From Chloranthus sessilifolius (Eukaryota > Streptophyta > Magnoliopsida > Chloranthales > Chloranthaceae), in the NCBI GenBank assembly GCA_021018995.1, contig CM037593.1, positions 11,374,088 through 11,438,087 on the forward strand: a stretch of DNA of 64,000 bases, written 5' to 3'. Positions 12,837 through 63,997 of the stretch are shown here, one piece after another (the first letter of the stretch is position 1; the number at the start of each line of letters is the position of its first letter). The position numbers were made by a program, and so were the translations under genes. The notes under the pieces are model-generated. The model was not told where the DNA came from. It saw nothing but the letters and a program-made list of their open reading frames with translations, and did not search any database.

Positions 12837-12920
12837 GGGAAATTTACCTGACCGACCCTGTCAGATACGCCTTTTACGTCAGAAGCCCTATAGTTTCACT
12901 TTTACCCAGACAAACCAGCT
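12837..12920 (+). repeat. MULE-1 left TIR
   Basis: It begins GGGAAATTTACCTGACC and runs 84 bp to CAAACCAGCT. Only one base differs from the complement of the right TIR. It probably holds transposase-binding sites and the transposase promoter, by analogy with MuDR. Confidence 0.9.
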
Positions 12921-13257
12921 CCAAGCCTAGCCGACCCTAAGGAGAGTAAAAGGTCCAAATTACCCCCTTCTAAGACCTTCTTTAACAAACAAAGCATCGT
13001 CTTCTTCCTCATTTTAACCTGCAAAAAAGTTAGAGGTGTAAAACCCTAGACGGAGTGTCCTTACTTAGTCTGATCTGCTCCGATCTGCTATTTCGAAGAA
13101 GAAAACAGAGGCTTGGAGAAGAAGAAGGCCCTGAACTTTGTCCTTGCGACTAGAGGTATCCTACTTAACCCCATTTTCAGTTTATTAGTGTTATGTAGTG
13201 ATGCAGTATCTCTTAGAAGAAGAAGGCCCTGCATTTCGTCATCGGCTCCATATACAT

Positions 13258-13506
13258 CCGATATCGATATCACATACAATCGATATCGATTGTGTATAGA
13301 GTCGATTACGACTCTATTTGAAATCGATATCGATTATATATACAATCGATGACGATTGTATGTGATATCGATATCGATTGTTTATACAATCGATATCGAT
13401 TTCAAATAGAGTCGATGCCGATTGTATATACAATCGATATCGATTGTATAGAGAAACGATATCGATTTCAAATAGAGTCGATATCGATTGTATTTGCAAT
13501 CGACTA
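13258..13506. repeat. TCGN4CGA 22-bp array (A1), MULE-1 transposase 5' region
   Basis: About 11 consecutive 22-bp units are present. Each is a 14-bp quasi-palindrome such as AATCGATATCGATT or AGTCGATTACGACT, plus an 8-bp AT-rich spacer. The array ends about 70 bp before the transposase ATG. It corresponds in position to 63335-63540 of MULE-2. Both strands read open because few units contain stop codons. Confidence 0.9.
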
Positions 13507-13577
13507 AGAGTTATAGTCGTCTTTTCTCTTTTATTTCATCAGTCTTATGACCCTTCCTTCTCATTCTTAAACAGACG

Positions 13578-16218
13578 ATGACGGACGTGAGGATTCCTCT
13601 TCTTTGTCACTATGATGGCCTTCTTGTAAACGATGATGGCTTGTATGAAGGTGGCCGGCGGAGGCTTATTAACATTTCAATTGAAATTTCTTATGAACAA
13701 TTCATAAGGCGAATGTCTGCTGTCAGTTTTGCGAAGGCGGATGAAACAGTTTCAACAAAGTTTCATATGAAGATAGTGAATACGCCTGTAGTTGCCGACA
13801 TTTTGGACTCTGATGATTTGGCTACATTATTTAGTTTTTATAAATCCGGAGTGGACGTTATAAAAGTATTCATCATTAAGGAACCGTCATCCTTCGATTG
13901 AAGTGAACAACAAGTAAATCTCCGGGACTGATTTTGTGTCTCATTCATTTCAGCCATAAGTTTGAGGATGAAATTGTATACGATACCGTCCGTTAGCGAT
14001 GGCGGTTATATTATATTGTAAACGATGGCAGAGGGAAAGCAACATTTGATTTAAACGATGCTCCGATTGAATCGTATGATGACCCAGTAAAATACATGCA
14101 TGGGTCACAACAATGTAGTCAATGGTTAGACTATACTTCAGAGAGGGTGGTGGATACCAACGATTTCAGTCATATCTTCCCCGGTGGATGGACAACTTGG
14201 TTTACTCAAGACTTATGTTCTACCATGCCATCGATGGAAATTACCGAGTAACTCAACCCCATGTCCATACATATGAGCCCCCCTTCGGTGAAGGCCCTAG
14301 CCAGGCACGCCATTATCCATACGGTGAAGGATCCGGTCAATCACAACCCCTTCGGTGAAGGATCTAGTCAACCACCCGAGAACATGAATGAAGATACCTT
14401 AGAAGAAGAATATGAAGGCGAACCAGATGGGGTTATGAAAGAGGACCCGAAAATTTTTGTGAGAGATATTGACAATCGTCTAGTAGACGGAGATTACGAA
14501 ATGTCAGAGACATCGGGCGATTCCTCCGATGAAGAGGTGGAAACGAATATCGAATTGACGTTTAAAATTGGAGAGATCTTGAGACAAACAAACATTTCAA
14601 AGAGCATTGAAAGAACACGGTTGAGAAAAACTTTCAAATTCGGCCTTTGAGGACCGCTAGTTATTGGATGCTACGAACCCGATTGTTCGTGAAGGCGAAT
14701 ACATGCTTCTAAATTGGTAGGCTCGATTCTTTCCAAATCAAGACATTCAATAGTACTCACACATGCGGAGCCGCTAAGATCGGACCGCACGGTCACCGTA
14801 ATGCAACAATCTCCTTCGTGCGAATTATATGCACGGGATAAACTTATGGAAGGATTCGACTACACCGGCGTCGATAATGTTTGATATTGCAAAAGCTTAT
14901 AATGTGCAAATCTCATATGCAAAAGCTTGGAGGAAAAGAGCTTGCCCTTAATGATATTAGAGGAAGTTGGGAAGGACAATTTGTTGATCTATCGGCCTCA
15001 CGTGAAGGAGATGAAGAGGGTAGATCCTAATGTACAAACATCCTTTCAACTTACTCTTGACGGTAAGTTTCAAAGATTTTTTGGAGTTTTGGCCCATGCA
15101 TCGGGCTACCGCAATACACTTCGTCGCATATTGCTTGTAGCGGCACACCTACGAGGACGTTTGAAGGATCCTCCTTATCGCCTCTCGCGCAAGACGGTAA
15201 TGGTCATATATTACCGTTAGCATTTGCCGTGGTCGAGTTAGAAGAAGAGGATACGTGGATGTGGTTTCTTGAGCGGGTAGGTGCGTTTCGTGATCGGTGG
15301 GTTTAACGAGGATCTCGTAATTATCACGCAGTGTCGAAGGGTTTAATAAATGCGGTGAAACGATATCTTCCTAACGCATATCACAACTTCGCATGGCATA
15401 TGACACAAAATTTCGGCAAAGACAAGTATCCTGTGAACAATGTGAAGGGTCTATGGTTCTTGGCGTGCATATTCGAAAGAGAAATTTGATTATTTTATCA
15501 ACGAAATGAAGAAAGATCCTGCGATTCTCGGGCCGTAGAATATATTTTGAAAATAGATCCAAAGCATTGGGCACGCAGCATATATGGAAGGAAGGCGATG
15601 AGGTCACGACTACGAATATTGCCGAAAGTTTAAACGGCGTGCTAAAGATAGCTCGAGAGAGACCAATTATTGACTTAATCGAACTACTAGAGAGAAAGTC
15701 GATCATTTTCAAAAGCAGAGATATCGATAAATGGACCACCCTTCTGCTGGCGGCAGATGCTCACATGAAGAAAGTGTTGCAATGGGCGGTAGAAAGAGAG
15801 CTCAACCATACGCGATCAATTCCAAGTCAATTCGAAATTACATTCATCACGTCGACTTGGAATACAAGACACAGTTACGAGTTGCCGTTGGCACATTCAT
15901 GGCTTGCCTTGCTCCCATGCCGTGGGCCATCAATCGAAGAAGTTCGACTATCATAAATTTTGTGAGAACTGGTTTTTCACCGCTTGCTTTAGACAAACAT
16001 ATGACGAGCAATGGGTTCCCACCCTCGATAAAAGTCAATGGGAGTTCCAAGCAGAGCAACTCCCTGAAAATATGAAAGTGAGACCACCCTATTATTGCCG
16101 AAAGCAAGGCCCGTCCAGGAAGAGAAGGATAAGGTCTAAGGGTGAGGTAACGAATATGGTCACAACCGCAGGAGCTGCAAGGCAGTGGGACCGATGGGCT
16201 AACAGTGTATATTTTTAA
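13578..16218 (+). pseudogene. MULE-1 transposase (mudrA-like), broken
   Basis: The ATG at 13578 opens a PB1-like N-terminal segment (13578-13901), then an acidic linker (about 14390-14560). After that come the CxC...HTC zinc-finger region, the plug segment, remnants of the DDE core, the SWIM region (about 15830-15960) and a basic tail. The frame is lost repeatedly. The codons for both catalytic aspartates are damaged: the VDG-TH motif reads VAAH near 15138, and the ITD motif near 15325 is altered. The glutamate motif NIAESLN (about 15617) survives. A gap of about 30 bp has also removed part of the C-terminal zinc knuckle still present in MULE-2. It cannot encode an active transposase. Confidence 0.85.
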
Positions 16219-16296
16219 TAATGATAGATTGAATGTAAATGAGAAATTCAGAATCCATGTTTTTTTACACTCTATTATAGTATTCTTGATGTGTAT

Positions 16297-16530
16297 CATA
16301 GAGTAGTCATCGATTATTATAACTAATGATATCGATTCTATATAGAGTCGCCATCGACTATGTATAACGTCGATATCGATTCATTTAAGAATCGGCATCG
16401 ATTATGGATATCGTCAATGACGACTACATATATAGTCGATATCGATTATTTATACAATCGACGACGATTACATCTGATAAATCACCGATTATTTATATAG
16501 TCGATGGCGACTATATATGTAGTCGCTAAT
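16297..16530. repeat. TCGN4CGA array (A2) between the convergent gene ends, MULE-1
   Basis: About 10 units of the 22-bp repeat lie between the transposase stop (about 16218) and the protease stop (16661). The corresponding MULE-2 array is 60205-60475. Spacers are mostly ATATATA-like. Confidence 0.85.
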
Positions 16531-17559
16531 GGATGCTATTCTACTTTTTAACTACAAGTACATAAAAATAGTGCCATTATATTCAAAATAATTCAATTTT
16601 CAATTACAAAAATATTCGAATGCAACCACACTATTACAAAAATATTCAAATACAACCACACTACTGCTGCTCCCCCTCCTTTTTGTCTTCCTTCACAAGA
16701 CTCGCCATCGCTGTATGTAGCAGTGTATGGCCAATCGATCCTCTCTATATCCGATCATAAGTCAAATTTCTTCCCATCATAAAATATTCGACATACTTCA
16801 CAACAAACACTCCGCAATCACAGGAGTTGGTCTGCCGGGGGACGGCTTTGATCCGGCAGTCAGTAGATGCCCAAGGATAGTTCTTCTTTATTAGCGCAGA
16901 GGAGTCACCGCATTTAATATAAGATCACGGGAAGGTATTGTGTCATTCAAATAATAGAGAGGAGTGTCGATATGTTAAGCTAACAATGATAAAAGATATG
17001 CTAAGCAAAATATCTTACCAAATACCGCAATTGGGCCACATATCTTTCCTTAGAGGGCCTATTAAATATAGAATTAAGCGATCATTATCGATCGTTCGAC
17101 TACCTTTACGATATAGCGCCGTGTAGTGGTTGTTCAGAATGTATTGGCATAAATATCTACAAAAAAGTAATATAATCTCAAAGGGTAGGATAGAAAAAAT
17201 TAAAAAGAATAATTATAAAGAGGATAAAAGCATACTATGTTGCATTCGTGAGCCCACAGATTCCGAAGCTCATTGTAGAAGAAAGTTTCCATCAGCCTCT
17301 TCCCTCCGGTCTCTCTTTGTTTATAGGCACGTGAACTTGAACCTCGATCGATCGGTCGCATACAATTTTTCAAAGAAGCAAAAACTTGTTGAAATCTCTC
17401 ACCATAGCCCATGTCGCCGTGTGTCGCAGGTCCATTAGGAAGTTTTGACATTTTCTCGGGATGAATTTTATCATCAATAACTTCCAAATGTCTCATGTAG
17501 GCCCATAACACGAAAACCAATGCGTTAGATTAAAATATGCGTTAGAGTTAAATACATAA

Positions 17560-17808
17560 TCGTTAGCGACTACGTACATCATTGATATCGATTCATTTTA
17601 GAGTCGAGTAACGATTATTTAAGTCGTCGAAATAGTTATCGACTCTCTAATGAATCGATATCGATGATTTGAGTCGCTAACGATTACATACGCCATCGTT
17701 AGCGACTCTACAAGCCATCGATACCGATTCCATAAGCCATCGATAACGATTACATAAGCCATCGATAACTTGATTATATAAGCCATCGATAACGATTTTG
17801 CCTACGAT
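17560..17808. repeat. TCGN4CGA array (A3) in a protease-gene intron, MULE-1
   Basis: The 22-bp period is clear at 17700-17808, where units such as CATCGATAACGATT alternate with the spacer ACATAAGC. The spacer wording is particular to this array. The position matches 58945-59172 in MULE-2. Confidence 0.85.
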
Positions 17809-18467
17809 ATTAAACTTACAAAGTTATCCAGTCTTTGGGTTTCCGACATCTGAAGGATTGCACCACCTTGTACTTGCCGATTGCTAACATATTCTGCATA
17901 AAACATGACCAACCTAACTCATCTTGACGATAAATATATAATAATAAAGTTAAGTATTCAGGGTAATTCTACTTACGCGTCCTCCTTCGCAGTCTTATAC
18001 CATATGTCTAGCATATATTTTTTCTCCATTAGCTCAGAGCATCTTCATCAAGAGACCGGGACGGTAATGATTGCCACCGATCCGTGCTCGTGATTGGTCC
18101 TTCAGGCCTTCGGTGGGCTTCTTTTCAACCGCTACCCTTCGCTGGGCCTTAGGTTTGATGGAAATTATTTTGCTGGCTTTCGCTTGCCTAGGTCTTAAGC
18201 GCTCGACATTTTGTTGGTGAGGCAATTGGGAAGAGGTTTCTTCACCAGGACCCTTATCGATTGGGTCTCAGTGTCGCTCGTCGCCATGCCTTCACCTCAT
18301 CAACGGGAGGAGGAGGAGGAACCTGATGCGCAGGAGCTAATGGTTCCTTATTGAAGGCTGTGTCGCACACCTTCGATATCAGCTCCTCCATAGCCACATC
18401 CTGTACATCGAAATAATGGTGTAAAATAAGAATTAATTTTTGGTCCACATTTTAAAATGTCCAAATC

Positions 18468-18640
18468 GATTTTAAATATAATCGCTATCGATTATATATA
18501 TATAGTCGCTATCGATTATATATATAGTCGCTATCGATTATATATATAGTCACGATCGATCATATATATAGTCGCTATCGATTATATATATAGTCTATCT
18601 ATTTTATATATGGTCATTATCGATTATATAGATAATGAAA
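18468..18640. repeat. TCGN4CGA-type array (A4) in a protease-gene intron, MULE-1
   Basis: About 7 units are built on GTCGCTATCGATTATATATA, most 20-22 bp apart. It lies between the coiled-coil exon and the proline-rich exon. The MULE-2 counterpart is 57970-58208. Confidence 0.85.
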
Positions 18641-19267
18641 ATTGAATATTAAAACTAGATTTCAACATATACCTTAGGTCTCGCCTCCAATAAATTTTCA
18701 AGGAGATCTTTTATTTCAGTCTGGCCCTTTCTGACTAAAGAGTTGTAGTGATTTAACTTCTGCCACTCCGCATCCCTTGAATTCAGCCTCTCATTGAAGG
18801 AGTTGCAGAGTTTCTCTAAAGAAGCGCAACGTTTAGCCAGGGCCTTATTCTCTCCCTCCAAATCGCTCACTCTTTGGGTGAGCTTCAAGTTATCCACAAA
18901 TGATCGACTCCTCAACAAAGAATCATTGAGGCTATCTATCTTTGCCAGGCTCTCCTTGGCGGCCCCCTAGTTCTTGGCCGACCCTCTCCCACTAGCACGG
19001 GCCCTTTTTCGAGAGGGTTCTTCTTGAACGTCGATCGTCATCCCATTCTTCCTCTCCTCTCCAAGATTATCGAAGAATGTAATTTCTTTTCTTCTTGGCC
19101 GAATCTCTTCCATGACTTTTCTTGATCGGTTCTTTCCTCTTCCCCCAACCTCCTTTTGAACCCGTAGATATTCTCTTACCACGGGTATCTCTAATTCAAA
19201 GCCACGAGGCATGAGGGGCCTTGAACCTTTGAAAGAAAATGAAACAACGAGAATAAAATGATCGTTA

Positions 19268-19450
19268 TATATATAATAAATCACTCTCGATTGTGTAAAG
19301 AATCGCTATTGATTCCTTACCTTAACAAATCACTATCGATTAGATAATGAATCGTTATCGATTACTTATTAAGTCGTAATAATCGCTATCGATTAAATAA
19401 ATGAATCATTAGCGATTCGTAATGAATGTATCGATTCTAGAATGAATCGG
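19268..19450. repeat. TCGN4CGA-type array (A5) in a protease-gene intron, MULE-1
   Basis: Degenerate units (AATCGTTATCGATT, AATCGCTATCGATT) fill the intron between the DUF1985-like exon and the coiled-coil exon. Several units have lost one CpG. The MULE-2 counterpart is 57000-57295, which is better preserved. Confidence 0.8.
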
Positions 19451-20344
19451 TAAGTTGCTTTTTTTTTAATAGATAGACCTCATACCTTCTTCTAACATCC
19501 GCATGAGTGTAACCTTTGATCTCGGATGCATACCGTCCACCATTTCAGGTGGAAAGGGTCCTTGAGGCCTAGCCGGGATGGCGATATATCGGGCGAGGAT
19601 CTCATAAGCCCACCATTGAAGTACATATGCATCCATATGTGTTGTATGCGTCTTCGGGCTTTATCCATCTCGGCGGTTTTTCTATTCGCCGCGCCTTTTA
19701 TTATATACTCCATCAAGTCCTGGTAGACGAGCAGACCCCACGGAGTTCGGTTGAAGGCCTCCATATCATCGATGAGGTCGATGTGGTCTTCAGAAATTTG
19801 ATGGTGGGAACCGGGGAAGAGAAATATGCACAACACAAACAGAAGGGACAACTTTAAGAAGTCCTCATCACTTTCCACTCTATAAATTGCAGCATCTATA
19901 TGAGACCGGAGAATTTTTCCGGGAGGCGTTCCACAAAGTATTTGTTTCTAATGGTTTGTTCTGCCGAGGGTTTACCGGATGGGGTAGCCTTTGCTGGGGC
20001 AACTACGGCAAGGCCCAGTATCAATGCAATGTGTATCTTCCGAAGATAGACATCAGTCTTCCCAGTTCGGAAATGGTTTTTATCAAGCCAAAATGTAAAT
20101 GACGAATCCACGACATCGAGAAAAGAAATCCCACACCTTGGATTTGAAATATTCCACCAAAACCTAATCTCTGAATTCTTCCGATCCGAGTAGCACTTTC
20201 GAGAGATTCAAACTAAGACGGGAGAACACTTGGCAACATGTCGGTACAACCATCTTGACAAATTTTGAAATGAATCGTAATAAAATGAAAGGACTCAACA
20301 CCATACTAACAAGGATAGTTAAAAATGTTGATGAAATGTATATA

Positions 20345-20935
20345 TAAAACCGTATCGATTACATCTAGAGATTATCGATTATATAGGTAATCGCTAACGA
20401 CCCTAGATGTAATCGCGATAGAGTCTATATATAATCGATACCGACTCTAGATGTAATCGATATCGAGTCTATATGTAATCGATATAGACTCAAAAGATTT
20501 CATGAAGTCGCCATTGAATCAAAATGTTTCATTTACTTGCAAAATTTTCAATTACATTCATAATAGTTCAATTAAAATTAAAAGTAAAAAGAAAATCTTG
20601 CAAGTCTACATATATAATCGATAACGATTACATATGTAAGCGCTAACGACTCTATATGTAATCGATATCGATTCATGAAATCGCCAACGACTCAATATAT
20701 ATTGCAATGACCTCAAAATGTTTATTTATATAGAAATTACTTGATTCTTGACTCTTAAGTTTCTTTTTCTTTCTTTATTTCTTTTTCTTTTCTTCCTTCT
20801 TCTTTACCTACACATCGATTATCTCTATAATCGATATCGTTCTATATGTAATCGCTATCGACTCTCAACGTAATCGATCTCGATTACTTATGAAATCGCT
20901 ATCAATTAAATATAAATCTACATTGATCTCAAAAT
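20345..20935. repeat. TCGN4CGA arrays (A6, three blocks) in the first protease-gene intron, MULE-1
   Basis: Blocks at about 20345-20505, 20605-20700 and 20815-20935 are separated by AT-rich text containing AATGTTT(A/C)AT direct repeats. Units such as ATCGATATCGATT and ATCGCTATCGACT are recognisable throughout. MULE-2 has the matching arrays at 55395-55565 and 55905-56085. Confidence 0.8.
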
Positions 20936-21614
20936 GTTTAATTTAATTAAATTTCCTTATTTACATAGAAAATATTTAATTTACTCAAAAGAATTCATGC
21001 ATCAAAAAAAGTTGTTTCATTTACTTCAAAATATTTGAATTACATTCAAATTTTTTCATTTATAATTAAAAAAAAAGAAAAAAGTTAGGAAGAAGGATGA
21101 AGGCGGTGGTGGATGGGGTGGAGGCCGGGTGGTTCTTGGTTTCTTTTTTCTTTTCCTTCCTTCTTCTTTTCTTTTCTTCCTTCCTCTTCTTCTTCTTTTC
21201 CTCCTTCGCCAAAATCTCCATTACTTCATCGTACTCGTCCCACGAGGAACCTGCAGAGGATCCGGTTACGGTGGTGGTGGTGGGGTCCTCCCATACGGAT
21301 AGAACTTTATTGGGTTATAGAAGGTTTTTCTTCTCGTCAGGACATTAGGAAAAATATGGGATGTAGGGATGATAGGTGGTTTGCTAAGGTCGAACTAAAC
21401 GTATTTAAAGCTCCTAGATTGTGGAATACGAATCGTTGTATTAAATTTTCTCATTCTTCCAACCTAACTTGCCATAATGGTTTTACAAAGGGTAGTTGGC
21501 AATAAATTGAAGCGTCTTGAGATAAATATAAAACCTCGTATGATTTATTATGGCATCGAGGTAATAACTATAGGAAATTATTTCAAATGATGGGTATTAA
21601 TTATATTCATGAGA

Positions 21615-21812
21615 GTCGATATCGATTTGTTATAGATTAAATCATCCACAGTTTATATAGTCGATTACGACTACATATATAATCTTTATCGACTCTAAAG
21701 GTAATCGAGAACGTTTCCCATATGTAATCGGAAACGATTACATATATAATCGATATCGACTACATATGTAGTCGTAATCGATTACATATGTAATCGTTAC
21801 CGATTACATATG
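21615..21812. repeat. TCGN4CGA array (A7) upstream of the protease gene, MULE-1
   Basis: About 9 units lie between exon 1 and the right TIR, including AGTCGTAATCGATTACATATG. The MULE-2 counterpart is 54530-54735. Confidence 0.85.
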
Positions 21813-22087
21813 GGAAAACCTAAAAAAAATATGTCAAAATATGCAACAAAGAGAGGAGAAATAAAAAATCTATAGCGATGGAAGCTAATTTTAATTCTAA
21901 CTTACAGATTTGGTAGCTTGAAGGTTATAGTTTTGAACGCGATCGTCCACGAAGCGTCAACGACTCTCCACCGACTTCGAACGAAAAAGTAAATTCAAAA
22001 CAGTAAATGATTTGAAACGACGGCGGCTATTTATTACTGTGGGGGTAGTTTGGGTATTTCCTACAGGCGTGCCTCAGCTCGGCGCGC

Positions 22088-22171
22088 AGCTGGTTTGTCT
22101 GGGTAAAAGTGAAACTATAGGGCTTCTGACGTAAAAGGCGTATCTGACAGGGCCGGTCAGGTAAATTTCCC
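22088..22171 (-). repeat. MULE-1 right TIR
   Basis: It is the complement of the left TIR with one mismatch in 84 bp, ending GGTAAATTTCCC at 22171. The duplication GTTTTTTCG follows at once. It lies on the UGT-proximal side. Confidence 0.9.
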
Positions 22172-22264
22172 GTTTTTTCGTCTAGAACCGGTGGGTTACC
22201 ATATGTGAGCTTAAACCAAAAAGGAAATCATAGGTCACCACTAACCTCACCTCACATATGTGGC

Positions 22265-22625
22265 ATGTTTATTTACAACCCTAATTTTTTTTTCTCCAGT
22301 CATTTCTTACATGGTAAAATCATTAATTGTTTTGAATCAAAATGAAAATCATTTATCATCCCACTCTTTCACATAATAGATTTTGAAATTATGGGCCTAT
22401 CATTAGACAATCAAATGTTGATCCTATGACACATCCCAAAACATGTACGAGATCACAGGCATGCCATTAAACAAAGTTCATGTTCACTTTTTGGATTATG
22501 TACCTAGTGGAATCTACATTTGGCCGTGATAGTAAGCCTAATGTTGTCAAGATCTGTAGTGTGAAAGATGGGACGAAAAATGATCACCAGCCAGCCTGTT
22601 TCAAAGCAGTCAACAATATAAGCAT
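22265..22625. repeat. M1-type inverted-repeat element in the UGT upstream region
   Basis: The left arm has TTGTTTTGAATCAAAATG and ATTTTGAAATTATGGGCC. The right arm has the complementary vocabulary (ATCTGTAGTGTGAAAGATGG, TTTCAAAGCAGTCAACAA). This is a diverged copy of the M1 family, sitting between MULE-1 and the UGT, so the UGT promoter is largely transposon-derived. Confidence 0.5.
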
Positions 22626-22680
22626 ATGAAACTTAAGGTTTAAAAGAAGAATCTTCGGTTGCAAATAAAGGTATCGACAT

Positions 22681-22704
22681 GTATATATATATATATATAT
22701 ATAT
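22681..22704 (+). promoter_or_regulatory. (TA)n tract, possible TATA region of the UGT gene
   Basis: A run of about 12 TA dinucleotides ends 76 bp before the UGT ATG. It is the only TATA-like sequence at a plausible distance, though a microsatellite is weak evidence for a core promoter. Confidence 0.3.
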
Positions 22705-22779
22705 ACACACCAACAGCCCATCCTGGGCTTTACAAAAACCACCACCCCCGAGAGACCAAGGCTCAGAGCACACACAAAA

Positions 22780-24177
22780 ATGGTGCACTTCTTGCTTGTA
22801 ACAATGCCTGCCCAAGGCCACATAAACCCCACTCTCCAGTTCGCCAAGTCCCTAATACGCACCACCGGCGCCCAAGTCACCTTCGCCACAACAGTCTACG
22901 CACACCGGCGCATGATAAAGCCTACCACCATTACCGACGGCTTATCATACGCCTCCTTCTCCGACGGCTACGATGACGGCTTCAAACCAACAGACGACCC
23001 TACGAGCTACATGGTTAAGGTTAAGGAACTCGGGTCCCGAACGCTTTCCCAACTCATCCTCACTCTTGCTAACGAACGCCGCCCTGTGACATGCGTAGTG
23101 TACACCATGGGCCTTGCGTGGGTCGCTGACGTGGCAACTAGCCTCGACATACCGTCGGTTCTACTTTGGATCCAACCGGCGACCCTGTTCGCCGTTTACT
23201 ACCACTATTTTCACGGATTCCATGGTCTTATCGATAATGACCGAAATGACCCCTCTACTTTGATAGAATTACCGGGATTGCCATTACTCACATTAGAGGA
23301 CCTTCCCTCCTTTCTTCTCGGTTCAAATCCCAGCACTGACACTGTGGTCTTAGCAAGCTTCAAAGAACAATTTGAAACTCTAGATCAACAACCCAAGCCG
23401 ACATGTGTTCTCGTCAACACGTTCGATGCCTTCGAAGGAGAAGCTCTAATGTCCGTCGTTGGGATGGAGATGGTGGGAATCGGTCCGTTGGTTCCATCGG
23501 CTTTTTCGGACAGGAAGGACCTGTTGGACACTTCTTTTGGTGGTGACTTGTTTCGGAATTCAACATACTACATTAAATGGTTGGACTCAAAGCCGTAGGC
23601 TTCGGTGGATTACGTATCGTTCGGCAGCTTAGCGGAGCTGCCGAAACCGCAGATGGAAGAGATTTTGCGTGGGTTGGAAGAAGCAAATCGGCCGTTTTTA
23701 TGTGTTGTGAGGAAGCCCGAAAATGGTACTGATATTTCGGATGGTTTCAGGGATAGGAAAGGAGGGCTTGTAGTGCCGTGGTGTAGTCAAGTTGAGGTGT
23801 TATCTCATCCATCGGTGGGGTGTTTCGTGACACATTGCGGGTGGAATTCGTCGATTGAGAGCTTGGTAATGGGCGTGCCAGTGGTGGGTTTTCCACAGTG
23901 GTCGGACCAAGCGACAAATGCGAAGCTTATGGAGGGGTTTTGGAAGATGGGGGTGAGGGCTAGGGTTAACAAGGATGGGGTATTGGAAGGTGATGAGCTT
24001 AGGAGGTGCTTGGATTTGGCTATGGGAGATGAAGAGGGTTGCGAAGAGATTCGGAAGAATTGTGTGAAGTGGAGGGATTTGGCGAGGGAGGCTGTGAGCG
24101 GTGGAGGTTTGTCGGATCGGAATATTCAAGAGTTCGTGAGGGAGGTGAATGAAGGTCGTTGTAGCAAACTCGAGTGA
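22780..24177 (+). pseudogene. UDP-glycosyltransferase, UGT75-type, with one premature stop
   Basis: The frame is 466 codons from ATG 22780 to TGA 24175-24177 and has no intron. It is continuous except for TAG at 23596-23598 (codon 273). The N-terminal half has the acceptor-side motif PAQGHINP, with the catalytic histidine at residue 14. RPVTCVVYT and LWIQPAT follow, phrases characteristic of the UGT75 group, which includes anthocyanin 5-O-, salicylate- and auxin-type glucosyltransferases. The C-terminal half has VSFGS and a complete 44-residue PSPG box (codons 334-377, from WCSQ to WSDQ), ending in Gln as in glucose-using enzymes. The stop falls in the interdomain linker, so a truncated product would lack the UDP-sugar site. 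No other lesion is visible, which implies recent loss, a segregating null or sequencing error. The acceptor is unknown. Confidence 0.9.
23779..23910 (+). other. PSPG box of the UGT
   Basis: Exactly 44 codons run from W to Q, with HCGWNSS and the final DQ pair that contact UDP-glucose in plant family-1 glycosyltransferases. It is fully conserved despite the upstream nonsense codon. Confidence 0.9.
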
Positions 24178-42053: not shown

Positions 42054-42250
42054 GGTGACCGAATGAAGAAAATGTACTCAGAAATAGTGAGCTCGCGGGA
42101 TGAACTCAGAGAGAAAGAGAGAGAAAAGATGTTGAGAAAGAGCGACAGAGGGAAATGAGTGCCGAAAGAGAGGGTAGATAAGAGTGGATATGGATTCCAC
42201 TGATTGCATTCTGTGGTAATTGATGTGGGAGTGAATATAGCTTGTTTAAC
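42054..42250 (-). promoter_or_regulatory. 5' flank of the NLR gene with a CT-rich leader
   Basis: In gene sense, 42140-42100 is a CTCTTTCTCTCTCT run, a pyrimidine-rich leader common in plant promoters and 5' UTRs. It lies 50-90 bp before the ATG. A clear TATA box was not identified. Confidence 0.4.
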
Positions 42251-53903: not shown

Positions 53904-54164
53904 GGGATTTTTGTAAGTTTAAAGAGGGGTGAGAAGATGAAGAAGTGGATCACCGGAACGGAGTACTCGTCGGAACTATAGAAGAAGAGGAAGAAGATGA
54001 AAAATAGCATCCAAATAAGTAGGTGAACTTCAAGATTCACTCTTCACCAAATCGAATCTTTAAGGGCACCCACAATCGAACTTCAATATTCCCTCTGCAC
54101 GTGTATGCCTCGGTGAACTCGAAGATTCGGTGGGTGAAAATAAAGTTACTCATAATTTTTGTAA
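53904..54164. other. Flank of MULE-2, no gene seen
   Basis: A/G-rich text to 54000, then M-type outer wording (GAACTTCAAGATTCAC, GGTGAACTCGAAGATTCGG). MULE-2 inserted into or beside an M1-like repeat. Confidence 0.35.
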
Positions 54165-54173
54165 GAAAAATAA

Positions 54174-54257
54174 GGGAAATTTACCTGACAGGCCCTGTCA
54201 GATGAGCCTTTTACGTCAGAAGCCCTGTAGTTTCACTTTTACCCAGACAAACCCGCT
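54174..54257 (+). repeat. MULE-2 left TIR (protease side)
   Basis: It begins GGGAAATTTACCTGACAGG and extends to about 54257. The following GCGCGCCGAGCTGA(C/G)GCACG is shared with the protease side of MULE-1, so subterminal DNA is also conserved. Confidence 0.9.
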
Positions 54258-54529
54258 GCGCGCCGAGCTGACGCACGCCTATAGGAAATGCCCAAACTAT
54301 CCCCACAACAATAAATAGTCGTCCTCTTTTCAAATCATTTACTATTTACTTTTTACTTTTTCGTTCGAAGTCGGTGGAGAGTCGTTGTCGCTTCGTGGAC
54401 GCTCGCGTTCAAATCTACAACCTTCAAGCTACCAAATCTTTAAGTTAGAATTAAAATTACCTTTCATCGCTATAGATTTTTTTTTTCTCCTCTCTTTGGT
54501 GCACATTTTGACATAATTTTTTTAGGTTT

Positions 54530-54735
54530 TCCCATATGTAATCGATATCAATCTTAGATGTAATCGATATCGATCTTATATGCAATCGTTAACGATTACA
54601 TATTGAGTCGCTATCGATTATATGTAGAGTCGCTATCGATTACATTTAGAGTCGATAACGATTATATATGTAGTCGTAATCGACTATATAAATAGTCGAT
54701 GACGACTCTATAATAAATCGATATCGACTCTCTAT
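54530..54735. repeat. TCGN4CGA array (A7) upstream of the protease gene, MULE-2
   Basis: About 9 units with the 22-bp period. TCG...CGA is kept in most, with centres ATAT, TTAA, CTAT, ATAA, TAAT and ATGA. It lies between the TIR and exon 1. Confidence 0.9.
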
Positions 54736-55394
54736 GAATATAATTAATACCCATCATATGAATTAATTTTCCTATAGTTATTACCCTCGATGCCATAATA
54801 AATCATACGAGGTTTTATATTTATCTCAGCTGACGTTCAATTTATTGCCAACTACCCTTTCGTAAAACCATTATGGCAAGTTAGGTTGGAAGAATGAGAA
54901 AATTTAATACAACGATTCGTATTCCACAATCTAGGAGCTTTAAATACAGGTTTAGTTCGTCCTTAGCAAACCTATCATCCCTACCAGCCCATATTTTTCC
55001 CAATGTCAGACGACGAAGAAAAAACCTTCTATAACCCAATCAGATGGGAGGACCCACCACCACCACCAGAACCAGATCCTCTGCAGTTCCTGTGGGACGA
55101 GTAAGATGAAGTAATGGAGATTTTGGCGAATGAAGAAAAGAAGAAGAGGAAGGAAGAAAAGAAAAAGAAGGAAGAAAAGAAAAAGAAACTTAAGACGGAA
55201 CCACCCGCCTCTCCACCCCATCCACCACCTGCTCTTCATCCATCTCCCTAAATTTTCTTTTCATTTTTAATTGTAATTAAAAAAATTTGAATGTAATTGA
55301 AAAATTTTGCAAGTAAATGAAACATTTTGATTCAATGGCGACTTCATGAAATCTTTTGAGTCAGTAAATTAAATATTTTGAGATCATTGCGACT

Positions 55395-55565
55395 TTATAT
55401 TGAGTCGATGGCGATTTCATAAGTAATCGATATCGATTATATTTAGACTCGATATCGATTGCATATAGAATCGGTATCGATTTTATATAGATTCGATTTC
55501 GATTACATCTAGAGTCGTTATCGATTACATATAGGGTCGATATCGATTATATATGTAATCGATAT
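55395..55565. repeat. TCGN4CGA array (A6, duplicate 1), MULE-2
   Basis: About 8 units such as ATCGATATCGATT and GTCGTTATCGATT, with 22-bp spacing. It is part of the tandem duplication and corresponds to 20345-20935 in MULE-1. Confidence 0.9.
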
Positions 55566-55904
55566 TGGTAAAGAAGAAAGAAGAAAAAAAAAAGAACAAA
55601 AGAAAGAAAAAGAAACTTAAGAGGGAACCACCCGCCTCTCCACCCCATCCACCGCCTGCTCTTCATCCATCTTCCTAAATTTTGGTTAGAAGCGGAGGAC
55701 CGCTTTTATCGAAGAATCTTCCTTAGGACGTTGCTGTAAGATTTTCTTTTCATTTTTAATTGTTATTGAAATATTATGAATGTAATTAAAAAATTTGCAA
55801 GTAAATGAAATATTTTGATTCAATGGCAACTTCATGAAATCTTTTGAGTCAGTAAATTAAATAATTTCTATATAAATAAACATTTTGAGGTCATTGCGAC
55901 TTTA

Positions 55905-56085
55905 TATTGAGTCGATGGCGATTTCATATGTAATCGATATCGATTACATCTAGACTCGATATCGCTTACATAGGGAATCGGTATCGATTATATATAGACT
56001 CGATATCGATTACATCTAGAGTCGATATCGATTACATAGGTAATCGATAACGACTCTATATGTAATCGATACAGGTTTTATATAT
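55905..56085. repeat. TCGN4CGA array (A6, duplicate 2), MULE-2
   Basis: About 8 units, partly in the same order as duplicate 1 but not identical in centres or spacers, so it has changed since the duplication. Confidence 0.9.
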
Positions 56086-56999
56086 ATACATTTCATCAAC
56101 ATTTAAACTATCCTTGTTAGTATGGGGCTCAGTCCTTTCTTTTTTATTACAGTTCATTTCAAAAGGCTGTCAAGATGGTTGTACACCGAGCTGTTGTCAA
56201 GTGTTCGCCCAGTGCCATTTCAAATCTCTACAAAAATACTACCCCAGCTCGGAAGAAGTTACTGAGAGATTCAGTTTTTGGTGAAATATTTTAAATGCCT
56301 AAGGGTGTGGGATTTCTTTCTGATATGGTGGATGCAATGTTGACATTTTGGGTTGAAAAAAATCACTTCTGAATTGGGAAGACTGATGTCTATCTTCGGA
56401 AGATAGACATTGCATTGATACTGGGCCTTGCCGTAGTTGGCCCAGAAAAATATACCCCATTCGTTAAACCATCGAAAGAACAAATCATTCGATACAAATA
56501 CTTTCGTGGAACGCCTCCTGGAAAAATTCTCTGATCTCATATAGATGCTACAATTTGGAGAGCGGAAAGTGATGAGGACTTCTTAAAGTTGTCCTTTCTA
56601 TTTGTGCTGTGTATATTTCTCTTTCCCGGGTCCCACCATCAGATTTCGGAAGACCACATCGACCTCATCGATGATGTGAAGACCTTTAACCGAACTCCGT
56701 GGGGTCTGCACGTCTACCAAGACTTGATCGAGTATATAATTAAGGGCGAGGCGAATAGAAAAACCGCCGAGATGGATAAAGCCCTAAAGACGTACAACAC
56801 ATATGGATGCATATGTGTACTTCAATGGTGGGCTTATGAGATCCTGCCCAATATATCGCCATCCCAGCTAGGCCTCAAGGACCCTTTCCCACGGTTGCTG
56901 AAATGGTCGGACAGGGCGCAGTTAAGGATCAAAGGTTACACTCGCGAACAGATGTTAGACAGTAAGATATGAGGTCTATTGCCAATTTAAAAAGTAACT

Positions 57000-57295
57000 T
57001 ACCGATTCATTCTAGAATCGATAACAATTCATTACAGAATCGATACCGATTGTTTACGAAGTCGATAGCGACTCAGTACAGAATCGGTATCGACGTCTTA
57101 GTAAGTCGATCGCGATTCATTTAGGAATCGATAACGATTCCTTAACAATCGATAGCGATTCCGTACAGAATCGATAACGACTTACTACGTAGTCGATAAC
57201 GATTCATTAAATAATCGATAGCGATTTTTTAACGAATCGATAACGATTTATTAAATAGTCGGTACAGATTCTTTACATAATCGAGAGTGATTTAT
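57000..57295. repeat. TCGN4CGA array (A5) in a protease-gene intron, MULE-2
   Basis: About 13 units, nearly all exactly 22 bp apart (one 21). Centres are ATAA, ATAC, ATAG, GTAT and ATCG. Spacers (CATTACAG, GTTTACGA, CAGTACAG) are particular to this array. It fills intron 56962-57350. Confidence 0.92.
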
Positions 57296-57969
57296 TATAT
57301 ATAACGATCATTTTATTTTGTTGTTTACGTGTTTCCTTTTCTTTCAAAAGGTTCGCGCTCCCCTCGTGCCTCAGGGCTTTGAATTAGAGATACCTGTGTT
57401 AAGAGAATATCTACGGGTTCAAAAGGAGGTTGGGGGGAAGAGAAAAGAACCGGTCAAGAAAGTTGTGGAAGAGATGCGGCCGAAGAAGAAAAGAAATTAT
57501 ATTTCGGTCGAGAATATTGATGAGGAAGAATGGGATGTCGCATCGACGTCAGAAGAAGAACCCCCATCGAAAAAGGGCCCCGTCCATGTCGGAGAGGGTC
57601 GGCCAAGAACTAGGGGAGCCACCAAGGAGAGCCTGGCAGTGAAAGATAGCCCAGCTGAACCGTCAATCTCCAATGATCCTTTGATGAGGAGGGTCGATCA
57701 TTTGACGATGGAGAACTTGATGCTCACCAAAAGAGTGAGCGATTTGAAGGGAGAGAATAAGGCCCTGGCTAAACGTTGCGCTTCTGTAGAGAAACTATGC
57801 AACTCCTTCAAAGAGAGGCTGAATTCAAGGGATGCGGAGTGGCAGAAGTTAAATCACTACAACTATTTGGTCAGAAAGGGCCAATCGAATATAAAAGAAC
57901 TCCTTGAAAATTTATTAGAGGTGAGACCTAAGGATGTGTTGAAATCTGATTTTATATGTTCAGTTTTGT

Positions 57970-58208
57970 TAACATAAATCGATATCGACTGTATATAGAG
58001 TCGATAACGATTATATACACAATCGTTATCGACTTTATCTAGAGTCGATACCGATTATATATGCAATCGTTATCGATTATATATACAGTCGATATCGATT
58101 ATATTTACAATCGATAGCGACTATATATATAATCAATAACGATCATATATAAAATCGATAGCGACTATAAGTACAGTCGATAATGATTATATTTAAAATC
58201 GATTTGGA
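57970..58208. repeat. TCGN4CGA array (A4) in a protease-gene intron, MULE-2
   Basis: About 11 units with 22-bp period and ATATATAC-like spacers fill intron 57921-58267. Confidence 0.9.
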
Positions 58209-58944
58209 CTTTTTAAAATGTGGACCAAAAATTAATTCTTATTTTGCACCATCATTTCGATGTACAGGATGTGGCTATTGAGGAGCTGATATCGAAGGTG
58301 TGCGACACAGCCGTCGATAAGGAACCATCAGCTCCTACGCATCATGTTCCTCCTCCTCCTCCCGTTGATGAGGTGACGGCAGCTACTGACGAGCAGCTTG
58401 AGACTCAAACTGATAAGGGTCCTGCTGGTGAAGAGGAAACCTCTTCCCAATTGCCTCACCAACAAGCTGAGCCTCGCTTAAGACCTAGGCAAGCAAAACT
58501 CAGCAAAGTAATTGCCGTCAAACCTAAGGCACAACGAAGGGTAGCGGATGAAAAGAAGCCTACCGAGAAGGCCAGCGAAGGACCAATCGAGCTGAGCCCG
58601 GACCAAAGGCGATCATTACATCACGATCTTGGGTCTCTGGTGAAGATGCTCTCCGAGCTTCCACTGAAATGACAATGAGCAAAAATATATGCTAGACATA
58701 TGGAACAAGCCTTTAAAGGAGGTCGAGTAAGTTATTTTTCCCTGAATACTTAACTTTATTATTATATATTTATCGTAAAGATTAGTTAAGTTGGCCATTT
58801 TTTATACAGAGAATATGTTAACACTGTCGGCAAGTATAAGCTGGTGGTGCAATCCTTCAGATGTCTGGCAGCAACGCAGTACCTGGATAACTTTGTAAGT
58901 TTAACATACTGTAGGCAAAATCAAGAATGGTTAAAGCTGTTGAC

Positions 58945-59172
58945 GACTCAAAAAAGAGTCGATATCGATTCATTATAGAGTCTATAACGATGGCTTACAT
59001 AATCGTTATCGACTCTCAAATTAATCGAGATCGATGACTTTTAGAGTCGATAACGATGGCTTATGTAATCGTTATCGACTCTGTAAATCATCGATATCGA
59101 TTCATTGGAGAGTCGATAACGATGACTTAAGATATCGTCATCGATGACTTATAGAGTCGATAACGATTATAT
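58945..59172. repeat. TCGN4CGA array (A3) in a protease-gene intron, MULE-2
   Basis: About 10 units at exact 22-bp steps with spacers GCTTA(C/T)(A/G)T and ACTTATAG, inside intron 58895-59217. The neighbouring introns of 78-83 bp have no units. Confidence 0.92.
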
Positions 59173-60204
59173 ATTTCACTCTAACTGCATATTTAAATCT
59201 AACTGCATTGGTTTCAGGTTATGGGCGCCTACCTGAGACATTTGGAAGTAATTGATGATAAAATTTATCCTGATAAAAATCTCAAAAACTTCCTTATGGA
59301 CCCTGCCGCACTGACGTACCTGGGCTATGAACTAAGAGATTTCAACAAGTTCCTGCTTGCTGAAAAATTATACAACCAATCGATCGAGGTTCAAGTTCAA
59401 TGGTGGGCTGTCTATAGACAAAAAGAGACCGAAGGGAAGAAACTGATGGAAACTTTCTTCTTTAATGAGCTTCAGAATCTATGGGCTCACGAATGCAGCA
59501 TAGTATGCTTTTATCCTCTTTATAATTATTCTTTATAATTTTTCTATCATACTCTTTGAGATTATATTACTTTTTTGTAGATATTTATGCCAATACATTC
59601 AGAACAACCACTACATTGGGCGCTTGCGATCGTGAAGGTAGTCGAACGATCGATAATGATCGTCGACCCTATATTTAATAGGCCCTCTAAGGAAAGATAT
59701 GTGTCCCAATTACAGGCGCTAGTAAGATATTTTGCTTAGCATATCTTTTATCATTGTTAGCTTAGCATATCTGACACTCCTCTCTATTATTTCGAAACAG
59801 ACTCAATACCTTCCCGTGATTTTATATTCGTATGGTGACTCCGCTGCACTGATCAAGAAGAACTATCCTTGGTCATCTAGTGACTGTCGGATCAAAGCCC
59901 TCCCCCGACAGACCAACTCGTGTGATTGTGGAGTATTTATTGTGAAGTATGTCGAGTACTTCATGATGGGGAAGAAATTTGACTTCGCGCAATCAGATAT
60001 AGATAGGATCATGGCAGAAATTGGCCATATCGTTACATACAGCGATGATATGAGTCTTGTGAAGAAGGACGACAAAAAGGAGGGGGAGCAGCAGTAGTGT
60101 GGTTGTATTTTAATATTTTTGTAATTGTAAATGAAATATTTTTTCTTAATGAATTATTTTGAATATAATTGCACTATTTTTATGTAGCTGTGGTTAAAAA
60201 GTAG

Positions 60205-60475
60205 AAATAGCAGCCATTATCGACTACATATATAGTCGTCATCGACTATATAAATAATCGGTGACGACTCTGTATGTAATCGCTATCGACTATATAACTA
60301 ATCGGTAACGACTCTTTATGTAATCGCTATCGACTATATATAGAGTCGTCATCGACTGTATTCATAATCGATACCGATTCTTATAGATTCTATATAGTCG
60401 ATGGCGACTCTATATAGAGTCGATATCGATTATGGATATAGTCGATGACGACTCTATGATTCATCGGTAAAGACT
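60205..60475. repeat. TCGN4CGA array (A2) between the convergent gene ends, MULE-2
   Basis: About 12 units between the protease stop (60097) and the transposase stop (60550), including AGTCGTCATCGACT and AATCGGTGACGACT. Confidence 0.9.
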
Positions 60476-60549
60476 ATATTACAGTAAAAAAATATGGATT
60501 CTGAATTTCTCATTTACATTCAATCTATCATTCTTAAAAATATACACTG

Positions 60550-63261
60550 TCAATCCATTGGTCCCACTGCCGTGCAGCTCCTGCGATTGTGACCATAATC
60601 ACTGCACCTGCTACACTGTAGTGCCCTAACCTCACCCTTAGACCTTATCCTTCTCTTCCTCGGACGACCGGCTTGCTTTCTGCAATAATAGGGCGGTCTC
60701 ACTTTCATATTTTCAGGGAGTTGCTCTGCTTGAAACTCCTATTGACTTTTATCGAGGGTGGGAACCCATTGATCGTCATATGTTTGTCTAAAGCAAGCGG
60801 TGAAAAACCAGTTCTCACAAAAGTTATAGTAGTCGTAACTTCTTCGATTGATGGTCGCCACGACATGGGAGCAAGGCAAGTCATGAATGTGCCAACGGCG
60901 GCAACTACAGGTCTTGTGTTCTAAGTCGACGTGATGAATGAAATTTCTGGAATTGACATGGAATTGATCGCGCCCGTATGGTTGAGCTCTCTTTCTACCG
61001 GCCCATTGCAACACCTTCTTCATGTGCGCGTCTACTTTCGGGCAGAGAAGGGTCGTCCATTTCTCAGATATCTCTCTGCGTTTTTGAAAATGATCGGCGA
61101 CTTTCTCTCTAGTAGTTCTGATTAAGTCGATAATTGATCTCTCTCGAGCTATCTTTAGCACGCTGTTTAAACTTTCGAAAATATTCGTAGTCAGGGAATC
61201 GTACTGCCTTCCTTCCATATGTGCGTGTGCCCAATGCTTCGGATCTATTTTCAAAATATATTCTACGGCCTAAGAATCAGTAGGATCTTTCTTCATTTCG
61301 TTAATAAAATAATCAAATTTCTCTTTCGAATATGCACGCACGGCGCACCACCATTTACCCTTCACATTGTTCCTGGGATACTTGTGCTGCAAATTTTGTC
61401 ATATGCCGCATGCAGTAGTTGTGATATGCGTTAGGGAAGATATGTTTCACCGCATTTATTAAACCCTTCGACATGTCCGTGATAAATACGAAATCTTCGT
61501 TAAACCCACCGATCACGAACGCACCTACCCGTTCAAGAAACCACATCCACGTATCCTCTTCTTCTAACTCGACCACGGCAAATGCTAACGATAATATATG
61601 ACCATTACCGTCTTGCGCAGAGGCGATAAGTAAGATCTCTTCGAAACGTCCTCGTAGGTGTGTGCCGTCTACAAGCAATATGCGACGAAGTGTATTGCGG
61701 TAGCTTCCGATGCATAGACCAAAACTCCAAAAAAATCTTTTAAACTTACCGTCAAGAGTAAGTTGAAAGGATGTTTGTACATTAGGATCTACCCTCTCCA
61801 TCTCCTTCACATAGGCCGATAGATTAACAAATTGTCCTTCCCAACTGCCTCTAATATCATTAAGGGCAAGCTCTTTTCCCCTCCAAGCATTTTCATATGA
61901 GATTTGCACATTATAAGCTTTTGCAATATCAAACATTATCGACGCCGGTGTGTAGTCGAATTCTTTCATAAGTTTATCTCGTACATAGTTCGCTACGGAG
62001 GAGATTGTTGCATTACGGTGACCGTGCGGTCCGATCTTAGCGGCTCCGCATGTGTGAGTACTATTGAATGTCTTGATTTGGAAAGAATCGAGCCCAGTCA
62101 ATTTAGAAGCATGTATTCGCCACGAACAATCGGGTTCGTAGCATCCGGCTGTCACTCGATAACTAGCGGTCCTCAAAGGCCGAATTTGAAAGTTTTTCTC
62201 CACCGCGTGTTCTTTCAATGCTCTTTGAAATATTTGTTTGTCTCGGAAGATCTCTCCAATTTTAAACGTCCAATTCCGATATTCAGTTTCCACCTCTTCA
62301 TCGGAGGAGTCGCCCGATGTCTCTGACATTTCGTAATCTCCGTCTACTAGGGGATTGTCAATGTCTCTCACAAAAATTTTCGGATCCTCTTTGATAAACC
62401 CATCCGGTTCGCCTTCATATTCTTCTTCTAAGGTATCTTCATTCATGGCTTGAGGATGACTACGCCATTCACTAGCGGTGTTCTCGGGTGGTTGACTAGA
62501 TCCTTCACCGAAGGGGTTCTGATGTGATTGACCGGATCCTTCACCGAATGGATAATGGCGTGGTTGGCTAGGCCCTTCACCGAAGGGGTGCTCATGTGTA
62601 TGGACATGAGATTAAGTTACTCCGGTAATTTCCATCGATGGCATGGTAGAACATAAGTCTTGAGTAAACCAAGTTGTCCATCCACCGGGGAAGATATGAC
62701 TGAATTCGTCGGTATCCACCACCCTTTCTGAAGTATAGTCTAACCATTGACTACATTGTTGTGACCCATGCATGTATTTTACTGGGTCATCATACGATTC
62801 AATCGGAGCATCGTTTAAATCAAATGTTACTTTCCCTCTGCCATCGTCATAATATAACCGTCATCGCTTAACGAGACGATGCAGTATCTGATTTCATCCT
62901 CAAACTTATATCAGAAATGAATGAGTCACAAAATGGGTCCAGATTTACTTGTTCAGCTTCAACTGGGAAGGATGACGGTTCCTTAATGATGAATACTTTT
63001 ATAACGTCTACCGCGGATTTATAAAACGTAAATAATGTAGCCAAATCATTAGAGTCCAAAATGTCGGCAACCACAAGCGTATTCACTATCTTCATATGAA
63101 ACCGAAAATCGATAAAGCAGAGACATTCGCCTTATGAATTGTTCATAAGAAATTTTAGTTGAAATGTTAATAAGCTTCCGCCGGCCACCTTGATACAAGG
63201 CATCATCATTTACAAGAAGGCCATCATAGTGACAAAGAGGAGGAATCCTCACGTCCGTCAT
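60550..63261 (-). pseudogene. MULE-2 transposase (mudrA-like), interrupted but with all catalytic motifs
   Basis: The ATG at 63261 starts the PB1-like segment, which is disrupted by a small deletion near 63115 and a frame change near 62840. From 62446 to 61355 the frame is open: an acidic N-part, the zinc finger (CYEPDC...HTC), the plug, then LVDGTHLRG (first Asp) and ITDMSKGL (second Asp) with CMRHM. A frame change near 61390 and a TAG near 61270 follow. From 61254 to 60739 the frame has NIFESLN (Glu) and the SWIM finger (CSC...PCSH). A TAG replaces the Trp codon seen in MULE-1, after which a basic region and the CCHC knuckle (CSRCSDYGHNRRSC) remain readable to 60550. There are few lesions, so decay is recent. 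Confidence 0.85.
62450..62620 (-). repeat. Short in-gene tandem repeat of the MULE transposases (GGTGAAGG(A/C) units)
   Basis: The minus strand reads four times (C/T)(T/A)CGGTGAAGG(A/C)(C/T)C(T/C)(A/G)G at about 30-bp spacing. The same occurs at 14282-14370 in MULE-1. It encodes GEG/PSQ-rich linker residues between the N-terminal and zinc-finger parts. Confidence 0.5.
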
Positions 63262-63334
63262 CGTCTGTTTAAGAATGAGAAGAAAGGGGTCATAAGACTG
63301 ATGAAACAAAAGAGAAAAGACGACTATAAATCTT

Positions 63335-63540
63335 AGTCGATTGTATATACAATCGATAATGACTACATATACAATCGATATCGATTGCAAATACAATCGT
63401 CATCGACTCTATATAGAGTCGATATCGATTGTATACACAATCGATATCGGCTCCATATGGAGTCGTCATCGACTCCATATACAATCGATATTGACTCTAT
63501 ATGGAGTCGATGACGATTGTATTTGCAATCGATATATATT
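63335..63540. repeat. TCGN4CGA array (A1), MULE-2 transposase 5' region
   Basis: About 9 units at 22-bp steps (15-bp motif plus 7-bp spacer, such as CAATCGATATCGATT and GCAAATA) lie 75 bp upstream of the transposase ATG. The overlapping ORFs on both strands are array translations. Confidence 0.92.
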
Positions 63541-63913
63541 TTTAAAAAAACGGATCGAAGGATACAAAGACCTTTCATATACTACACGAATAGGAGATAC
63601 TGCATCACTAAGAGACACTAACAAACTGAAAATGGGGTTTAAGTAGGATACCTCGCGTCGCAAGGACAAAGTTCAGGGTCTTTTTGCCACAATGAAGAAA
63701 TGCAGGGGCTTCTTCTCCCAAGCCTCTGTTTCCTTCTTCGAAATAGCAGATCGGAGCAGATCAGACTAAGTAAGGAGACGTCGTCTAGGGTTTTGCACCT
63801 CTAACTTTTTTGCAGGGTAAAATGAGGAAGAAGAAGATGCTTTGTTGGTTAAAGAAGGTCATAGAAGGGGGTAATTTGGACCTTTTACTCTCCTTAGGGT
63901 CGGCTAGGCTTGG

Positions 63914-63997
63914 AGCTGGTTTGTTTGGGTAAAAGTGAAACTACAGGGCTTCTGACGTAAAAGGTGCATCTGACAGGGCTTGTCAGGTAAATTTCCC
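63914..63997 (-). repeat. MULE-2 right TIR (transposase side)
   Basis: The complement reads GGGAAATTTACCTGACAAGC, matching the left TIR with about five differences in 84 bp. The three bases GAA that follow begin the target duplication, and the window ends there. Confidence 0.88.

Follow-up and report, generated by a model that had tools for sequence, protein, structure and literature searches.

Tandem arrays of a CpG-containing palindrome in a TIR-bearing MULE family of Chloranthus sessilifolius: candidate docking sites for an element-encoded, VANC-like protein

Two full elements, their genes, and their arrays

The window analyzed here, i.e., a stretch of 64,000 nucleotides from Chloranthus sessilifolius (contig CM037593.1, positions 11,374,088 to 11,438,087; host genome of 2.17 Gb in 32 contigs), harbors two full Mutator-like elements (MULEs) of one family, referred to as A and B, which lie in opposite orientation and carry tandem arrays of a short palindromic motif in their non-coding DNA. 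Both are bounded by terminal inverted repeats (TIRs) of ca. 98 bp and by a perfect 9-bp target site duplication, and both contain a transposase gene and a second gene running in opposite directions. The reading frames of both gene regions are broken in A as well as in B. The elements (delimited by their TIR pairs and target duplication) and the genes of B are as follows:

12837–22171, + strand: element A, full TIR-MULE, transposase gene on +, second gene on –, target site duplication GTTTTTTCG
54174–63997, – strand: element B, full TIR-MULE, transposase gene on –, second gene on +, target site duplication GAAAAATAA
55003–60097, + strand: second gene of B, eight exons proposed, broken frames; PMD/DUF1985-like, probable coiled coil, partial Ulp1/C48
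56153–56961, + strand: exon 2 of this gene, PMD/DUF1985 domain, apparently a distant relative of VANC21; open in copies L013, L025, L034, L038, and L046, with stops in B
60555–63264, – strand: transposase gene region of B, broken frames, provisional model; DBD_Tnp_Mut, MULE, and SWIM by Pfam

The frames of B thus contain a Mutator-like transposase gene (DBD_Tnp_Mut, MULE, and SWIM domains), while Pfam matches in the second gene comprise a PMD/DUF1985-like stretch, a HAUS5/bZIP-like stretch that probably represents a coiled coil, and the later part of an Ulp1/C48 protease domain (E = 2e-9). In the model of this second gene, splice sites and frames were assigned by eye, and the exon 2/3 boundary is provisional, as the frame is not joined there. 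A first-pass annotation of the window had labeled both elements as Kaonashi-type MULEs. The Ulp1-domain gene opposite to the transposase gene is indeed a trait shared with KIU-carrying and Kaonashi elements (PMC13317346, PMC2528002), but the latter (KI-MULEs) are described as non-TIR elements (PMC2528002), whereas A and B have TIRs.

The family is large: a genome-wide first look gave 7,594 candidates with the transposase as query, 2,577 with the coiled-coil exon, and 1,838 with the TIR (the best of each being scored). From the best listed matches, 20 further copies were fetched that had both genes at their usual distance, and because of this selection they do not constitute a random sample. 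Both ends could be placed in 16 of these 20 (155,007 bp), which together with A and B make up a set of 18 copies; 13 of the 16, again with A and B, were aligned (15 copies), and three were left out. Among 16 copies in which both TIRs were well matched (A, B, and 14 fetched ones), the target duplication of 9–10 bp was perfect in 13 and had one mismatch in the other three, with a tolerance of up to 3 bp in the position of the ends.

Scanning the window for TCGN4CGA yielded 111 sites and 67 pairs exactly 22 bp apart. Element A holds 19 of these pairs and B the other 48; the 44,877 bp outside them contain five single sites and no pair. In B, 63 sites and 48 pairs were observed, whereas first-order Markov simulation (300 runs) gave on average 2.9 sites and 0.003 pairs. 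Genome-wide, 39,345 pairs occurred at 22 bp (144 for the reversed control) and 702 at 21 bp (control: 212). The 155,007 bp of the 16 fetched copies contained 604 pairs at 22 bp, whereas the 43,507 bp of flanks around the 20 fetched copies contained none, with three single sites. In these samples of flanks and window, the arrays were therefore far from being equally frequent outside the family, and an additional array site on contig C1 proved to be a divergent member of it (see below). A dyad-symmetric motif with CpGs could resemble a transcription-factor site, so that the element might exploit a host DNA-binding protein (an activator, repressor, or insulator). This explanation seems very improbable given that neither the flanks nor the window outside A and B contain 22-bp pairs (pairs and not single sites being compared), and that the element encodes its own DUF1985-type candidate.

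Within the elements, 841 of the 844 sites in the 15 aligned copies fall in seven long non-coding compartments, i.e., the two regions upstream of the genes, the gap separating their 3′ ends, and four long introns. As in the VANDAL/VANC systems discussed below, a short motif is thus arrayed in tandem and chiefly in non-coding DNA. At least two sites were present in six of the compartments in all 15 copies, and upstream of the transposase gene in 14 of them, so that the corresponding placement noticed earlier in A and B extends to the aligned family, every copy of which has arrays at these positions. The TIRs and the three introns of 78–84 bp were free of sites, as had been claimed; one site lay in exon 6 and two in the transposase region. 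B has eight arrays, since intron 1 contains two. The arrays (none with an assigned strand) were located by motif scan, combined for B with the 15-copy alignment:

54564–54727: B, upstream of the second gene
55405–55546: B, array 1 in intron 1
55912–56053: B, array 2 in intron 1
57040–57246: B, intron 2
57979–58164: B, intron 3
58959–59166: B, intron 5
60236–60451: B, between the 3′ ends of both genes
63375–63516: B, upstream of the transposase gene
13280–13487: A, upstream of the transposase gene
16348–16510: A, between the 3′ ends
17560–17795: A, intron 5 counterpart (placed by alignment with B)
18482–18581: A, intron 3 counterpart (placed by alignment with B)
19274–19392: A, intron 2 counterpart, eroded to two sites that are 31 bp apart
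20391–20883: A, arrays of the intron 1 counterpart (placed by alignment with B)
21616–21952: A, upstream of the second gene

This placement also bears on the idea that the reader of the arrays is the MuDR-type transposase of the element itself, with the arrays serving as extended transposition or anti-silencing sites. The transposase does contain a DBD_Tnp_Mut domain, and a review lists MURA of MuDR among the transposon proteins with demethylation activity (PMC10706983). However, the TIRs, which are the usual transposase sites, hold 0 of the 844 motif sites, the arrays lie in introns at a distance from the element ends, and the known system of this layout uses VANC (PMC5735166), which makes this idea quite improbable.

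The depth of this conservation rests on one divergent locus, which heads the array sites listed for the genome (L001 and L004, C1:122609-126574). It is an internally deleted relative with 70–74% identity at the DNA level and 68% in the DUF exon, in which ten exact cores keep the 22-bp register within three arrays at homologous places: one upstream of the transposase, one at the junction, and one beside the DUF exon. As a separate observation, this locus has lost most of its coding sequence yet kept three arrays, as a non-autonomous copy might.

Repeat unit and sequence constraint

From 69 units of the alignment, the repeat unit was defined as the dyad-symmetric ARTCGNTANCGAYT followed by an 8-bp AT-rich spacer. 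The TCG-N4-CGA unit with quasi-palindromic flanks and an AT-rich spacer, as initially described, was thereby confirmed, although the full unit is longer and the spacer measures 8 bp. Consecutive sites in the 18 copies were predominantly 22 bp apart (670 steps), with 94 steps of 44 bp and a few of 19–24 or 43 bp, so that the proposed 22-bp step is the rule but not without exceptions, the eroded intron 2 array of A being another. One 21-bp step also occurs inside the intron 2 array of B (57128–57158) and in most of the 15 aligned copies; closely similar pairs with this 21-bp spacing turn up repeatedly in the genome listing.

The two halves of the motif profile mirror each other. Nevertheless, among 310 distinct units the half-sites showed no positive covariation, the R/Y and N pairs being even anti-correlated, and the spacer pair –5/14 was the sole pair agreeing above chance. 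A symmetric profile with no covariation fits a dimeric reader rather than a hairpin. A hairpin or cruciform reading was rejected, as the half-sites do not covary.

It had further been proposed that the motifs face the same side of the helix. This is nearly so for neighbors, but with a helical repeat of 10.5 bp a 22-bp step overshoots two turns by ca. 34 degrees, and an array of nine units consequently drifts through most of one turn. Motif sequence, density, and helical periodicity have reportedly been treated as specificity determinants by Sasaki in 2022 (EMBO J 41:e110070). The AT-rich spacers at about two helical turns might also suggest a scaffold that phases nucleosomes or bends DNA without being read by any specific protein. 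This is hardly credible, however, since a 22-bp step drifts against a helical repeat of 10.2–10.5 bp along the array, and since specific bases, and not AT content, are constrained.

Within the units, substitutions per site amounted to 0.016–0.033 at the core A/T positions, 0.039–0.054 at the CpGs, and 0.052–0.085 at most spacer and N positions. Private variants per site numbered 0.170 in the core, 0.295 in the spacer, and 0.204 in other non-coding DNA, while the corresponding values for shared variants were 0.049, 0.173, and 0.085. Shared core variants were hence depleted relative to the spacer (Fisher p = 1e-9) and to other non-coding DNA (p = 0.01), and the shared:private ratio of the core differed from that of the spacer (p = 0.013); these tests, and those below, take sites and copies as independent, so that their p-values are rough. 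The core thus shows signs of constraint, which are modest compared with other non-coding DNA, and the pattern reads as constraint on the core in transposing lineages alongside decay of the resident copies.

The CpGs within the motif had a lower shared:private ratio (30:115) than CpGs outside the arrays (157:297; p = 0.0014), with 0.417 private versus 0.109 shared variants per site. These figures would fit methylated decay in resident copies and intact transposing lineages, although purifying selection alone would give the same picture.

Some of these data would also be expected from a functionless minisatellite spreading neutrally in the non-coding DNA of the family. Copy number indeed changes, since among events larger than 10 bp 17 of the 48 private ones and 5 of the 8 shared ones are multiples of 22 bp; the phase is not clearly protected from small indels, and core constraint is, as said, modest. 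Such neutrality nevertheless seems unlikely, because within units the core A/T positions are the most stable and the majority of spacer positions the most variable, because the core is depleted among shared variants, and because placement and in-phase cores outlast ca. 30% divergence in the one relative mentioned above. Of the two options initially left open, i.e., a mini-satellite or a functional scaffold such as a protein-binding ladder, protein binding (itself deduced) is the better supported one. No result obtained here favored nucleosome phasing or a silencing decoy, neither of which was the object of a test.

The second-gene protein and its resemblance to VANC systems

Among the copies with an open exon 2, L013 scored 39.8 bits against PMD, over the cut-off of 34.9, whereas L025 scored 31.3 and fell under it; against DUF1985, both reached E-values of 1e-5 to 7e-5, below the curated cut-off. 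All five open copies matched both PMD and DUF1985 at E ≤ 0.01. Moreover, the L013 exon was 27% identical (E = 1e-18, single comparison) to L051 (locus C3:135664400-135669400), a clear DUF1985 protein from the same genome whose gene has an open frame and which matches the solved VANC21 chain 9lnj (E = 1.4e-4). A joint profile found VANC21 along nearly the whole of exon 2 (E = 2e-6), and still did so at 2.6e-5 (positions 24–195) with a further DUF1985 protein added. Judged from these similarities, the second-gene protein appears to be a remote relative of VANC and not a close one. DUF1985 itself is common in this genome, as all 150 places scored (of 4,046 candidates) were over the cut-off. Other approaches gave little: a search of a protein collection, perhaps poor in plants, with exons 1–3 of the second gene of B and an open exon 2 returned no match, the structure predicted for exon 2 from a three-row alignment was poor (mean pLDDT, i.e., predicted local distance difference test, of 42), and profile–profile comparison between the VANC21 segment and an alignment restricted to the family was not informative.

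The statement in the first-pass annotation that no MULE of such a design had been described turned out to be wrong, as the VANDAL/VANC systems are of this design (PMC5735166, PMC10398659) and Ulp1-bearing VANC genes are known (PMC13317346). In Arabidopsis VANDAL21, a MULE with a DUF1985-type gene such as the present family appears to have, VANC21 occupies intronic, intergenic, and terminal non-coding DNA; it binds the family-particular motif YAGTATTAY in vitro, apparently needs a high motif density, and often has tandem repeats as targets, in arrays that contract and expand (PMC5735166). Non-coding regions are also where RNA-directed DNA methylation (RdDM) and VANC contest each other (PMC10398659). 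VANC6 recognizes a different short motif, also in tandem repeats of the non-coding parts of related VANDALs, so that motif divergence between families is already known (PMC5735166). Some VANC genes contain an Ulp1 domain (KIU), and the Vandals carrying them recognize motifs of their own kind, according to a 2026 review (PMC13317346). The PMD proteins MAIN and MAIL1 have been linked to a promoter motif with the reader left open (PMC7156037), which was not used as evidence here.

The present family differs from these systems in several respects. YAGTATTAY is non-palindromic, lacks CpG, and occurs in one orientation, and the VANC6 motifs (AGTTGTCC and AGTTGTAC) are neither palindromes nor contain CpG (PMC5735166), in contrast to the palindrome with two CpGs and a 22-bp step found here. 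VANDALs are called non-TIR elements (PMC13317346), whereas TIRs and 9-bp target duplications are present here. TIRs together with an Ulp1-domain gene are not new alone, since melon and grapevine have Ulp1-bearing TIR-MULEs with this gene in either orientation, although the accessible source text on these makes no mention of motif arrays (the word "tandem" occurs 0 times in it; PMC2528002). Finally, binding and demethylation were demonstrated for VANDAL21 (PMC5735166), while they are deduced here. The design is thus known in kind, and the CpG palindrome, the 22-bp step, and the TIRs distinguish it from the VANC21 and VANC6 systems.

Taken together, we consider it likely that the arrays are high-density docking sites for the VANC/KIU-like anti-silencing protein encoded by the element's own second gene, and the family is best read as a TIR-bearing relative of the VANDAL/VANC system with a CpG-containing palindromic target. 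The second-gene protein, with its PMD/DUF1985 domain, probable coiled coil, and Ulp1 protease domain, would recognize ARTCGNTANCGAYT, probably in dimeric form given the dyad symmetry of the target, and many sites about two turns apart would permit dense binding. Occupancy over promoters, introns, and the 3′ gap might then strip or block DNA methylation across the whole element, which could free both genes for expression in this family only. The seven array compartments are the same kinds of place that VANC21 occupies on VANDAL21, and this was counted in favor of the anti-silencing reading.

Several observations weigh against it. On the side of the arrays, a single spacer position is as invariable as the core (0.024), private core variants show no significant deficit relative to other non-coding DNA (p = 0.11), and no significant difference separates the shared:private ratio of the core from that of non-coding DNA elsewhere (p = 0.17). 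The density of small shared indels is almost as high within the arrays (6.1/kb) as in the remaining non-coding DNA (7.4/kb), and thus gives no sign of selection on exact phase. On the side of the protein, a family-only profile did not match VANC21 in PDB at E ≤ 10 and a single-copy search of PDB gave no match at E ≤ 1, which means that the link to VANC rests on the intermediate sequence and on Pfam. DUF287, which is the second domain annotated in VANC proteins, was not among the Pfam matches (E ≤ 0.01) of the exons scanned (all but exons 1, 5, and 7), and the L051 locus, although encoding a DUF1985 protein, had no such arrays in its 5 kb (one locus).

A variant of the anti-silencing reading follows from the two CpGs inside the constrained core of each motif, and holds that binding is gated by CG methylation: the protein would bind unmethylated arrays only and keep them unmethylated, whereas methylated arrays would exclude it. 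The array might then store its on or off state in a self-sustaining way, with Ulp1 acting as effector through deSUMOylation. We regard this gating as possible, though on the unlikely side.

Other features of the window and implications

Outside A and B, the window contains a second, distinct array of TTGATCGATCAA at 7817–8362 with a mostly 20–21-bp step, inside a putative element that extends from about 4164 to 11147. Genome-wide, TTGATCGATCAA forms 11,250 pairs at exactly 21 bp (reversed control: 0). The 297 bp at 4164–4460 recurred at 40 places that were scored, out of 2,211 candidates, and no frame of at least 100 aa was present in 3901–11300. The same putative element also has a short array of palindromic TTATCGGNCGATAA-like units about 21 bp apart (5081–5182). 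The remaining features, of which the two open frames adjoin the elements and were assigned by eye from their translation, are:

22669–24177: UDP-glycosyltransferase-like open frame
26118–27179, – strand: fragment of another MULE transposase, DBD_Tnp_Mut by Pfam, with no 22-bp pairs
39417–42077: open frame resembling a coiled-coil, nucleotide-binding-site, leucine-rich-repeat (CC-NBS-LRR) protein

With its 39,345 motif pairs in one genome, the family described here offers a high-copy and sequence-defined VANC-like target, in the form of a CpG-containing palindrome in a TIR-MULE. If the proposed function is true, array-based anti-silencing would not be bound to degenerate TIRs, a link that has been discussed before (PMC10398659), and the role of CG methylation in target recognition would become directly testable.

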